Positions 2,995-6,765 of a stretch of DNA of 43,804 bases are shown here, piece by piece. How positions within the stretch are numbered: position 1 is the first letter of the stretch; each line of letters starts with the position of its first letter. The position numbers and the translations under genes are program-made. Source of the stretch: [Collinsella] massiliensis (GTDB taxonomy: Bacteria > Actinomycetota > Coriobacteriia > Coriobacteriales > Coriobacteriaceae); the NCBI GenBank assembly GCA_000333815.1, contig CAPI01000052.1, forward strand, positions 1-43,804, written 5' to 3'. Under the pieces are notes generated by a model, which saw nothing but the letters and a program-made list of their open reading frames with translations, did no database searches and had not been told where the DNA came from.

Positions 2995-3157
2995 ACCCCC
3001 TTGCTCGGATTGGCGTTCAGAATCGGTGGAATTCGGTCGGCGGCGCGCATCGTCCGACGAGCGGCGCATCGCGGCCCGACCGTCGCCCCGCGTCATGCGC
3101 CTCCGCTGTTTGGGTACAAAAACGGTACGTACTGTCCCCGGATAGATAGGAGTGCTC

Positions 3158-3742
3158 ATGGATATCAAGGTTTCCGGACGTAAGACCACGGTAACCGATG
3201 CCCTGCGCTCGCATGTTGAAGAGAAGGTCGGAGAGGCGCTCAAGGTATTCGATATCGAGCCCATGACCTGCGATGTCGTGCTCCGCTACGAGAAGAACCC
3301 CTCCATCGCCGAACCGGCGATCGTGGAGGTCACCGTCCGTGCCCGCGGCTCGGTGATCCGCGTGGCCGAGCACGGCGCCGATATGTACGCCGCCATCGAT
3401 ACCGCCGCCGACAAGGTCACCCGCCAGCTCCGCAAGTTCAAGACGAAGGTCGTCGACAATCGCCAGCAGGGGCCGTCGGCAGCCGAGGTCGCGCCCGTCG
3501 AGCGCGTCGAGGACCTGGCCGACCTCCTGCTCCCGGAGGAAGAGGACAACCTGCTCGTGCGCGAGAAGGTCATCGACATCACCCCGATGACCGAGGAGCA
3601 GGCGCTCGTGCAGACCGATCTGCTCGGCCACGACTTTTACGTGTTCGAGAACGCCACGACCGGCCTCATCAATGTGGTGTATCACCGTAAGAATGGTGGA
3701 TATGGCATCATCAAGCCCAAAATCGAGGTTCCCGGCGAGTAA
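3158..3742 (+). CDS. hpf: Long-form ribosome hibernation promoting factor (HPF/RaiA family)
   Basis: The 194-residue product matches the long HPF form. The N-terminal S30AE/RaiA domain (about 1–100: MDIKVSGRKTTVTDALRSHV, with DVVLRYEKNP in the central strand) binds the small ribosomal subunit in the mRNA/tRNA channel. A linker follows (about 105–130). The C-terminal dimerisation domain (about 135–190, LGHDFYVFENATTGLINVVY and GGYGIIKPK) joins two 70S ribosomes into inactive 100S particles in stationary phase. I chose the ATG at 3158 because AGGAG ends five bases upstream. A GTG at 3152 is also in frame but overlaps that ribosome site. A strong terminator follows 28 bp after the stop, so the gene probably ends its own transcript. 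Confidence 0.93.
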   Translation: MDIKVSGRKTTVTDALRSHVEEKVGEALKVFDIEPMTCDVVLRYEKNPSIAEPAIVEVTVRARGSVIRVAEHGADMYAAIDTAADKVTRQLRKFKTKVVDNRQQGPSAAEVAPVERVEDLADLLLPEEEDNLLVREKVIDITPMTEEQALVQTDLLGHDFYVFENATTGLINVVYHRKNGGYGIIKPKIEVPGE

Positions 3743-3770
3743 AATACGTCTACTGCGTGCATGTAGGCGA

Positions 3771-3800
3771 GCGGCCATCCATGCGGATGGCCGCTTTTTT
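3771..3800 (+). terminator. Rho-independent terminator of hpf
   Basis: A perfect 10-bp stem GCGGCCATCC/GGATGGCCGC with an ATGC loop is followed directly by six T residues (3795–3800). It lies just upstream of the degV ribosome site. Confidence 0.92.
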
Positions 3801-3816
3801 GAGAAAGGCTGAGCAG

Positions 3817-4767
3817 ATGACCATCGCTCAATCCGAAGGGTACGCGCACCGCTGCCGCATCGCGGTCGATACCTGTTGCGATTTCACCCCCGAGATCGCC
3901 GCGACGCTCGATGTCGACATCCTTGGCTTCCCCTATATCCTCGACGGCGAGGAGCGGGCGGATGACATCTGGGCGTCTATGACGCCGAAGTGGTTCTACG
4001 ACCAGATCCGCTCGGGTGTGAAGGCCTCGACGGCGGCCATCTCCGTCGGGCGCTACCTCGAGTACTTCACCGAGTGCGCCGAGGAGGGCACGCCCACGGT
4101 GTACCTCGCGTTCACCTCGGCGCTTTCCTCGAGCTACGAGCACGCGTGCATTGCGGCGGACGAGATCCGCGCGAAGTACCCGGATTTCGAGCTGTACGTG
4201 GTCGACAACGCCCTGCCGTGCTCGTGCGGCGAGCTCCTGGCGCTCGAGGCCGTGCGCCAGCGCGCGGCGGGCCTCACCGCCCAGCAGCTCGCGCAGTGGG
4301 CGGACGAGGCGAAGACCTGCGTGCACGGCTACTTCACCCTCGACAGCCTCGATTCCCTCGCGGCGGGCGGGCGCATCCCGCCGGCGGCCGCGCAGCTCTC
4401 GAGCAAGCTCGACATCAAGGCGAGCCTCTCGTTCGACCTCGCGGGCTCGCTCACGCTCACGGGCGTGAGCCGCGGGCGCAAGAAGGCGCTCAAGGGCCTC
4501 GTGAAGGCGTTCAAGGAGAACTACATCGTCGACCCGAGCATGCCGCTCACCATCGTGACCGCGGATGCCGAGAAGGACGGCGATTGGCTCGAGGCCGCCA
4601 TCCGCAAGGAGGACGGCTGCTCCGACCTCACGATCATCCGCGGCTCCGTGGGCCCGACCATCGGCGCGCACGTGGGGCCGGGCATGGTCGCCGTCATCTT
4701 CTGGGGCAAGAACCGCGCCGACAAGCTGTCGCTCTCCGACCGCATCGCGCGCAAGGTCCGCGGCTGA
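3817..4767 (+). CDS. DegV family protein (fatty-acid binding)
   Basis: The 316-residue protein starts with the DegV pattern: IAVDTCCDFTPEIAATLDVD, then FPYILDGEE and FYDQIRSGVKASTAAISVG. The TSALSSSYEHA stretch matches the region around the lipid-head-group site, and GRIPPAAA and GRKKALKGL follow in order. DegV/FakB proteins bind a fatty acid and, in Gram-positives with FakA, present it for phosphorylation and phospholipid synthesis. No fakA is seen nearby, so the partner is unknown. Several DegV paralogues per genome are usual. The open frame extends upstream through the hpf terminator, so I placed the start at ATG 3817, which follows GAAAGG at 3803–3808. Confidence 0.88.
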   Translation: MTIAQSEGYAHRCRIAVDTCCDFTPEIAATLDVDILGFPYILDGEERADDIWASMTPKWFYDQIRSGVKASTAAISVGRYLEYFTECAEEGTPTVYLAFTSALSSSYEHACIAADEIRAKYPDFELYVVDNALPCSCGELLALEAVRQRAAGLTAQQLAQWADEAKTCVHGYFTLDSLDSLAAGGRIPPAAAQLSSKLDIKASLSFDLAGSLTLTGVSRGRKKALKGLVKAFKENYIVDPSMPLTIVTADAEKDGDWLEAAIRKEDGCSDLTIIRGSVGPTIGAHVGPGMVAVIFWGKNRADKLSLSDRIARKVRG

Positions 4768-4785
4768 TCCAGCCCGAACACGCGG

Positions 4786-4861
4786 GTGATAATTTGGTGT
4801 CAGTCACCTTTTTATCACCGCGGAGCACGTGATAAAAAGGTGACTGACACCAAATTATCAC
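4786..4861. repeat. Family A palindromic element, copy 1 (perfect 33-bp inverted repeat)
   Basis: The left arm (4786–4818) and the right arm (4829–4861) are perfect reverse complements of 33 bp, separated by 10 bp. The arm contains GGTGTCAGTCACC flanked by AT-rich ends (GTGATAATTT and TTTTTATCAC). The layout resembles REP/BIME-type palindromes of the kind mobilised by RAYT (REP-associated tyrosine) transposases. It fills most of the degV–dehydrogenase gap and would also fold in RNA, so it may end or protect transcripts. Confidence 0.93.
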
Positions 4862-4907
4862 CCCCAACGCATCGACAACGTGGCAAGCAAACAAGGGAGA
4901 TACCACA

Positions 4908-6005
4908 ATGGCAGATAAGAAGCTGAAGGTCGCGTTCATCGGAACGGGCATCATGGGCGCGCCCATCGCCGGGCACATCCTCGACGCGGGCTACCCGCTC
5001 ACGGTCTACAACCGCACCCAGGCGAAGGCGCAGCCGCTCGTCGACCGCGGCGCTGAGCTCGCCGCCACGCCCGCCGAGGCTGCTGCCGGCGCGGACGTGG
5101 TGTTCACGATGGTGGGCTACCCCGAGGACGTCGAGGAGCTCTACCTGGCGAGCGACGGCCTGCTCACGGCCTCGAAGCCGGGCGCGATCCTCATCGACCT
5201 CACCACGAGCAGCCCCTCGCTCGCGCGCGACATCGCCGGCGCGGCTGCCGTGAGCGAGCGCACCGCCTTCGACTGCCCCGTGACGGGCGGCCAGGCGGGC
5301 GCCATCGCCGGCACGCTCACCGCGATCATCGGCGCGACCGAGCACGACATCGAGCCCGTCCGCGAGCTGCTCGCCACCTTCACCTCGCGCATCTTCTGCT
5401 TCGGCGGCGCGGGCAAGGGCCAGGCCGCGAAGCTCGCCAACCAGGTATCGCTTGCCGCGTCCATGGTGGGCATGGCCGACGCGCTCTCCTACGCGCAGCA
5501 GGCCGGCCTCGACCTCGAGCTCACGCGCGACATGATCCTCACCGGCACGGGCAAGTCCGGCGCGATGGAGCAGCTGGCGCCCAAGGCGCTCGAGGGCGAC
5601 TGGAAGCCGGGCTTCATGGTGAAGCACTTCATCAAGGACATTGGCCTGGCGCTCCAGGAGGCGGAGGAGTACGAGATCGCCCTGCCCGGCGCGGACACCG
5701 CCTACGCCCTGTACGACATGCTCGACGCCATCGGCGGCGCGGAGCTCGGCACGCAGGCCATCACCCTGCTCTACGCGGAGGAAGCGGACGCTGCGGCGGC
5801 CGGCCTCGACTGGTCGCGCTACACCCAGGATGAGGACGCATGCGGCTGCGGCCACGACCATGAGCACGGCCACGGCGACGACCACGAGTGCTGCCACGGC
5901 CACGGCCACGAGCACGGCGAGGGCCACGAGTGCTGCCATGGCGAGGGACGCCATCACGGACACGGCGACGGCCATGAGTGCGGCTGCCGCCATCACGGGG
6001 AGTAA
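4908..6005 (+). CDS. NAD(P)-dependent beta-hydroxyacid dehydrogenase with a C-terminal His/Cys-rich metal-binding-like tail
   Basis: Residues 1–300 form a 3-hydroxyisobutyrate/tartronate-semialdehyde reductase type enzyme. They show a Rossmann motif GTGIMG at 12–17, the substrate motif DCPVTGGQAGA at about 122–132, GGAGKGQAAKLANQ with the catalytic lysine near 175, and FMVKHFIKDIGLAL near 230. The family reversibly oxidises beta-hydroxyacids with NAD(P). The exact substrate cannot be read from sequence. From about residue 309 to the end the protein changes to a tail of about 55 residues with 17 His and 8 Cys plus many Asp/Glu/Gly, built from HGHG, HECCHG and HECGC repeats. Such tails bind nickel, zinc or copper in other proteins (HypB, SlyD, chaperones), but none is a usual part of this enzyme family. 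The ATG follows AAGGGAG. The next gene is 61 bp downstream. Confidence 0.9.
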   Translation: MADKKLKVAFIGTGIMGAPIAGHILDAGYPLTVYNRTQAKAQPLVDRGAELAATPAEAAAGADVVFTMVGYPEDVEELYLASDGLLTASKPGAILIDLTTSSPSLARDIAGAAAVSERTAFDCPVTGGQAGAIAGTLTAIIGATEHDIEPVRELLATFTSRIFCFGGAGKGQAAKLANQVSLAASMVGMADALSYAQQAGLDLELTRDMILTGTGKSGAMEQLAPKALEGDWKPGFMVKHFIKDIGLALQEAEEYEIALPGADTAYALYDMLDAIGGAELGTQAITLLYAEEADAAAAGLDWSRYTQDEDACGCGHDHEHGHGDDHECCHGHGHEHGEGHECCHGEGRHHGHGDGHECGCRHHGE

Positions 6006-6066
6006 GCGCCCGGTGCGCCCGCGTCCCGTGCAGTCGTATACGAATCGCAAGAAGAGGTAGGCATCA

Positions 6067-6765
6067 ATGGCAGATACCAAGGAACGCGAGCTCGATACCC
6101 AGGAGGTCGAGGCGCTCGCGCAGATCGAGCGCGACGGTGCGGCGCTCGCCGCGCTCATCGAGGACCTGAGCAGCTCGAGCAGGCGCACGCGGCAGTTCTC
6201 CGCGCGCGTGGTGGCGATCCTCGCCCAGCGCGAGCCGAAGCTCCTCGACCCGTACGTCTCCGACCTCATCGACGCCCTGTACCGCCCCGAGGCGCAGACC
6301 CGCTGGGAGGTGCTCGACGCCCTGAGCGAGCTCGTCCCCGACCACGCGAAGGAGATCGGCGCCGCCTTCGAGGGCGCCGAGACGGCGCTCTTCGACGAGC
6401 TCTCCGCGACGCTGCGCCTCTCCGCCTTCCACCTGCTGTGCGTCTGGGGTGCCACGGAGCGCGGCCGCTCCAAGAAGGTGTGGCCCATCATCGACGAGGC
6501 CATCCAGTGCTATCACGGCGACCTCGAGTACCGCGACATGCTCGGCTACCTCCATGAGTTCGCGCAGGGCAAGATCGCGGGCGACGTGGCCGAGGAGCTC
6601 GCCGGCCGCCTCTCGTTCGACGCGGAGAACGGCAAGGGCAGCTATCTCAAGGCGCGCTCGCGCGAGATCTACGACATGCTCGTCAAGCGCTTCAAGCTCG
6701 ATGCGCCCAAGAAGCGCGTCCGCGCCCAGGCGAAGGACGACGACGTCGAAGAGGACGAGGAGTAG
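6067..6765 (+). CDS. Helical-repeat (HEAT/ARM-like) protein of unknown function
   Basis: The 232-residue product is almost all amphipathic helices. Stretches such as RRTRQFSARVVAILAQREPKLL..., ALYRPEAQTRWEVLDALSEL and DELSATLRLSAFHLLCVWGA have the length and spacing of HEAT/ARM repeats (about residues 35–190). A charged C-terminal tail ends in DDDVEEDEE. Proteins of this kind act as scaffolds or bind protein or RNA partners, and I can assign no specific role. A GAGGTAGG ribosome site precedes the ATG. The stop is 3 bp before the isocitrate dehydrogenase start, so the two are probably co-translated. Confidence 0.8.
   Translation: MADTKERELDTQEVEALAQIERDGAALAALIEDLSSSSRRTRQFSARVVAILAQREPKLLDPYVSDLIDALYRPEAQTRWEVLDALSELVPDHAKEIGAAFEGAETALFDELSATLRLSAFHLLCVWGATERGRSKKVWPIIDEAIQCYHGDLEYRDMLGYLHEFAQGKIAGDVAEELAGRLSFDAENGKGSYLKARSREIYDMLVKRFKLDAPKKRVRAQAKDDDVEEDEE

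Follow-up and report, generated by a model that had tools for sequence, protein, structure and literature searches.

A His/Cys-rich, putatively metal-binding tail on a beta-hydroxyacid dehydrogenase of Coriobacteriaceae and Atopobiaceae

Why does a beta-hydroxyacid dehydrogenase end in a tail of the kind carried by metal-handling chaperones? The question is raised by a gene of [Collinsella] massiliensis on a contig of 43,804 bases (hereafter the window), which belongs to a 2.33 Mb genome. Residues 310-365 of the encoded protein (nt 5835-6002) are DACGCGHDHEHGHGDDHECCHGHGHEHGEGHECCHGEGRHHGHGDGHECGCRHHGE. These 56 residues include 17 His, 8 Cys, 13 Asp/Glu and 15 Gly, while the remaining 309 residues contain just 3 His and 2 Cys. 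At a His+Cys rate of 5%, at least 25 such residues among 56 would occur with P about 4e-18, and a chance origin of the enrichment was therefore excluded. The coordinates, the His and Cys counts and the HECCHG, HECGC and HGHG repeats given in the original prediction were correct on recount. The features of the locus are listed in Table 1.

Table 1. Features of the tailed dehydrogenase gene and of its conserved neighbours in the window.
Feature	Position	Strand	Basis or remark
Ribosome hibernation factor (S30AE/HPF), first gene of the conserved neighbourhood	3152..3742	+	PF02482, PF16321; synteny
DegV-family protein	3757..4767	+	PF02645; synteny
ORF, complete beta-hydroxyacid dehydrogenase, 365 aa	4908-6005	+	
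Beta-hydroxyacid dehydrogenase core, residues 1-309	4908..5834	+	NAD_binding_2 and NAD_binding_11, catalytic motifs intact
GLDW hinge, residues 299-302	5802..5813	+	Beginning of the C-terminal extension usual in Coriobacteriales
His/Cys-rich tail, residues 310-365 and stop	5835..6005	+	Composition, low pLDDT, selection test
HEAT-repeat-like protein, downstream neighbour	6067..6765	+	PF13513 weak, below cut-off; synteny

The Pfam domains and the intact motifs confirmed that the tail is fused to a complete dehydrogenase, as had been predicted. Both core domains, PF03446 (E 2e-45) and PF14833 (E 5e-28), were over the cut-offs in a Pfam profile search, and profiles and fold matches gave the N-terminal NAD(P)-binding Rossmann domain and the C-terminal all-helical domain of the family. 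The protein has a GxGxMG cofactor motif, a DxPVSGG-type substrate motif and the catalytic Lys followed by Asn. In alignment A1 of 92 homologues GTGIMG, DCPVTGG, K175, N178 and K243-D244 are nearly invariant, and so are G299 and W302 of the hinge. The closest solved relatives of the core are Pyrobaculum L-serine 3-dehydrogenase (3w6u/3w6z; sequence E 1e-62, fold match of 40% identity over 283 columns) and tartronate semialdehyde reductase. None of the NCBIfam equivalogs reached its cut-off (TIGR01505, 199 vs 341 bits; TIGR01692, 179 vs 292 bits), so the dehydrogenase is a family member without assigned substrate. It is probably an NADP-linked enzyme of the L-serine 3-dehydrogenase / tartronate-semialdehyde reductase (TSR) / HIBADH kind. 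The P. calidifontis enzyme (3w6u, 3w6z, 5xvh) and its relatives TSR and HIBADH resemble it in core sequence and fold but, unlike the window enzyme, have no His/Cys extension.

A structure was predicted by AlphaFold2 using 92 sequences. pLDDT was about 98 for residues up to 300 but fell to 46-56 over the tail; the core is thus predicted to be confidently folded and the tail disordered. In this model the protein ends, as SlyD does, in a disordered stretch rich in His, Cys, Asp and Glu. Comparison of the tail with solved structures returned no matching chain.

The same fusion was found in other genomes, where it is the normal state of the Coriobacteriaceae orthologue. When a Coriobacteriaceae sequence with at least 5 His and at least 4 Cys beyond the core was counted as tailed, 49 of 51 sequences were tailed, with a median length of 55 residues, 16 His and 9 Cys. 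The exceptions were G007, with a reduced tail, and G027, apparently Collinsella sp. AK_207A, with none. The 47 Atopobiaceae sequences were more variable: 27 combined His with Cys, 6 had His alone, 2 had Cys alone and 12 had neither. The tailed gene of both families is the syntenic orthologue of the window gene, and the tail is not a peculiarity of the window genome. The original prediction had allowed for a frameshift artefact, with the tail absent in near relatives. This was excluded by the sister genomes, which are tailed; a frameshift or assembly artefact was also ruled out by the presence of the tail in isolates, e.g. Enorma massiliensis and Collinsella species.

Outside the order, none of 24 homologues (8 from Bacillota, planctomycetes and others, 16 from other Actinomycetota) had such an extension, and these proteins terminate before or near the GLDW hinge. 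The earlier statement that family members end near residue 300 without a tail therefore stood for the family elsewhere (residue 290-300) but failed within Coriobacteriales, whose orthologues are as a rule extended at the C terminus. In more distant families of the order the extensions at the corresponding position are acidic or contain His, and some are rich in Asp, Glu, Tyr and His. In the loci L053 and L055-L060 of these families, an acidic low-complexity stretch is followed by a shared GSFFSxN / GFFSKN C-terminal motif.

Module length and order change rapidly, and several Atopobiaceae lineages have poly-His only, Cys only or no tail, so that the role of the tail is dispensable in some lineages. 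On a quick core tree, in which many branches were weakly supported, the minimum number of changes was 19 for the four tail states and 13 for presence against absence of a tail, counts that give no direction (gain vs loss). The natural extremes of the tail (L223, L229, L233, L234) include CCG-HHHE repeats, a Cys-rich form that has 2 His, repeats made up of His and Asp/Glu alone and a His run resembling an affinity tag.

To assess selection, 14 closely related Collinsella alleles that do not differ in length were compared; pair comparisons of alleles are non-independent, and the figures are descriptive. pN/pS was 0.052 in the tail and 0.042 in the core, while pS was higher in the tail (0.290) than in the core (0.182). 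Cys was changed in 0/819 and His in 10/1271 pair comparisons of the tails, against 63/787 for Glu, 57/1230 for Gly and 38/526 for Asp. Ten of the 22 invariant His/Cys columns vary synonymously. The low pN/pS, the unchanged Cys and almost unchanged His and the synonymous variation together indicate that His and Cys are preserved as amino acids. In these alleles purifying selection constrains the tail about as strongly as the enzyme core.

His/Cys tails of the SlyD and HspA type bind metal. The tail of mycobacterial GroEL1 has His without Cys modules. The tail type of the dehydrogenase, with HECC, CGCG and HDHEHGHG, matches the tails of SlyD and HspA. SlyD, an FKBP-type PPIase, is likewise a complete folded enzyme that ends in a disordered tail of some 50 residues, and the HECCGG, HGH and CxC modules and acidic residues of that tail have counterparts here. 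The HECCGG-type module is also found on SlyD of Tolumonas, Vibrio and a Prevotellaceae. The carrier differs, being a PPIase in SlyD and in the window a beta-hydroxyacid dehydrogenase without a NiFe hydrogenase link; PF00254, the FKBP-type PPIase domain, was not found in the dehydrogenase protein by Pfam search, and the protein is not a SlyD. The E. coli SlyD tail holds up to 7 Ni and that of H. pylori SlyD binds Ni or Zn, with micromolar Kd (PMC7055735). HspA, the GroES of H. pylori, is also a housekeeping protein to which a His/Cys tail has been added in one lineage; that tail acts as a nickel store and in detoxification and protects against nickel (PMC3856676). However, HspA is a nickel-regulated co-chaperonin, whereas the window protein is an oxidoreductase and its tail is spread over two families. 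The third comparison, mycobacterial GroEL1, is an actinobacterial housekeeping-type protein whose His-rich C-terminal tail has been investigated as a Cu(II) ligand (PMC10170517), but it is a chaperonin paralogue and not a dehydrogenase.

We examined 20 FKBP/SlyD-like regions of Coriobacteriales genomes, 13 of which have a tailed dehydrogenase while several do not. In the final 60 residues of these SlyD-like proteins there were 0-2 His and 0-1 Cys. A tail common to the genome's own SlyD was ruled out at present, the SlyD-like proteins here being tail-less. The pattern would be compatible with the metal module having moved from the chaperone to the dehydrogenase. Another non-chaperone carrier of the module was seen in Akkermansia/Akkermansiaceae MAGs (L164-L166, L168-L170), where a YlbF/YmcA-family protein (for example L164:5536-6114, PF06133 E 9e-12) ends in a CSCGGGC...HECCGGHGDGHECCGG tail. 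The His/Cys tail type is known, but its presence on the beta-hydroxyacid dehydrogenase family was not found reported in the open-access literature, a search of which returned no report of a His-rich dehydrogenase of such kind or of such proteins in Collinsella.

We propose, with a probability of roughly 0.6, that the disordered tail binds several metal ions and serves as a cytosolic metal buffer or sequestration module on a normal dehydrogenase. Its His, Cys and acidic side chains would coordinate several soft or borderline ions (Zn, Ni, Cu or Co), and the carrier of the module would be a soluble housekeeping enzyme. The dehydrogenase tail of Coriobacteriaceae and Atopobiaceae would thus play the part that the His/Cys tail of SlyD has in other bacteria. 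We infer metal binding by analogy with the known tails, and likewise that the tail serves buffering and not control of the enzyme. Zinc, copper or nickel remain the candidate metals for buffering or sequestration. An abundant enzyme is assumed.

Control of the enzyme by metal was weighed against buffering. Metal bound to the tail would alter the oligomer or block the active site, and activity would follow free metal. The tail is covalently joined to an intact enzyme in which all catalytic motifs are present, and the PPIase activity of E. coli SlyD is reversibly inhibited when the protein binds Ni (PMC7055735). However, tail-less orthologues retain the same core and motifs, and the number and length of the modules vary widely, which is more like capacity than a fixed switch. 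We regard metal-responsive control as unlikely.

Storage or delivery of nickel for NiFe hydrogenase, urease or LarA with its nickel-pincer cofactor, as by SlyD and HspA, would agree with the resemblance of the tail module to nickel-chaperone tails, and the window genome has a LarC with 38 His and, by eye, LarB. The expected co-occurrence with a served nickel enzyme was not found. With one mis-assigned outgroup row removed, LarC (PF01969) accompanied 32/46 tailed and 21/27 untailed orthologues. The corresponding figures were 6/32 and 11/12 for near full-length NiFe hydrogenase and 3/32 and 2/12 for urease. Only near full-length matches to PF00374 were counted as NiFe hydrogenase because most matches in Coriobacteriaceae are confined to profile positions 1-70 and probably represent NuoD-like subunits of complex I. 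The counts follow lineages, with few phylogenetically independent pairs, so the apparent opposite trend, markers being commoner in the untailed, is no evidence by itself. Six tailed genomes lack LarC, NiFe hydrogenase and urease alike, and G027, the Coriobacteriaceae member that has lost the tail, has all three. Coupling to LarA, LarC, NiFe hydrogenase or urease was rejected for want of any positive association. Supplying known nickel enzymes is not the common purpose of the tail, and we consider the nickel-delivery reading improbable. The nickel-chaperone analogy of the original prediction is borne out by the SlyD/HspA-type tail sequence but not by the distribution, since the tail does not track nickel enzymes.

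The LarC gene of the window genome (G000:C122:29870-31261, L176) encodes most of its His in one loop and lies directly downstream of the LarB-like gene; a search of this genome gave no LarA above the Pfam cut-off. LarC was also the sole other strong cluster in a DNA-pattern scan of the genome for His-rich runs, a noisy scan that His-rich proteins with other spacing may escape.

That the tail is a disordered acidic or polar extension for solubility or partner docking, with its His and Cys incidental, would suit the other extensions at this position in distant Coriobacteriales families, some ending in a GSFFSxN-like motif, but it is hardly probable given that the Collinsella tails preserve His and Cys most strictly and let Asp, Glu and Gly vary more.

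The gene order around the dehydrogenase is HPF (S30AE), DegV, dehydrogenase, often a small gene resembling a two-helix membrane protein, and the HEAT-like protein, followed often by an isocitrate/isopropylmalate-type dehydrogenase and then a conserved acidic protein. This order was kept in 45 Coriobacteriales loci checked, bar a few missing genes (contig ends, the optional dehydrogenase). In several Atopobiaceae the next gene after the dehydrogenase is instead an NYN-like protein (by eye). No metal-linked genes were found among the conserved neighbours of the tailed dehydrogenase; the neighbourhood is one of housekeeping genes, and the tail is thus carried by a housekeeping gene. A far-reaching extension of the buffer reading would make the dehydrogenase the main cytosolic store of metal, probably zinc, in Coriobacteriaceae and Atopobiaceae, and the conserved locus with the hibernation factor would then link redox metabolism, metal supply and ribosome dormancy physically or transcriptionally; this we hold to be very unlikely.

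Two further observations concern the spacers of the locus. In most Enorma and Collinsella relatives the dehydrogenase and the HEAT-like gene are separated by a gene of about 140-165 codons that resembles one for a small membrane protein. In the window, positions 6006-6066 hold a remnant of ~60 nt ending in RKKR-stop that matches the end of the relatives' small gene, which seems to have been deleted in the window genome; the corresponding gap in Enorma burkinafasonensis is likewise short. The spacer that separates degV from the dehydrogenase contains a near-perfect palindrome of about 80 nt (4784-4863), with a folding energy of -61.8 kcal/mol as RNA (z -15). Its arm, GATAATTTGGTGTCAGTCACC, had 32 matches in the genome at <=2 mismatches, against 0 for a control pattern. 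The palindrome is a dispersed palindromic repeat and may be a small mobile element or a terminator.

Coriobacteriaceae and Atopobiaceae are common gut and mouth bacteria, and no description of how they hold spare metal was found in the open-access literature. The finding singles out one candidate metal-holding gene, present in nearly every sampled Coriobacteriaceae genome, and its tailed, poly-His-only, Cys-only and tail-less versions allow direct testing. It suggests that the metal tail of SlyD, HspA and GroEL1 is a portable module able to settle on a metabolic enzyme, and a housekeeping dehydrogenase may double as the cell's metal buffer.
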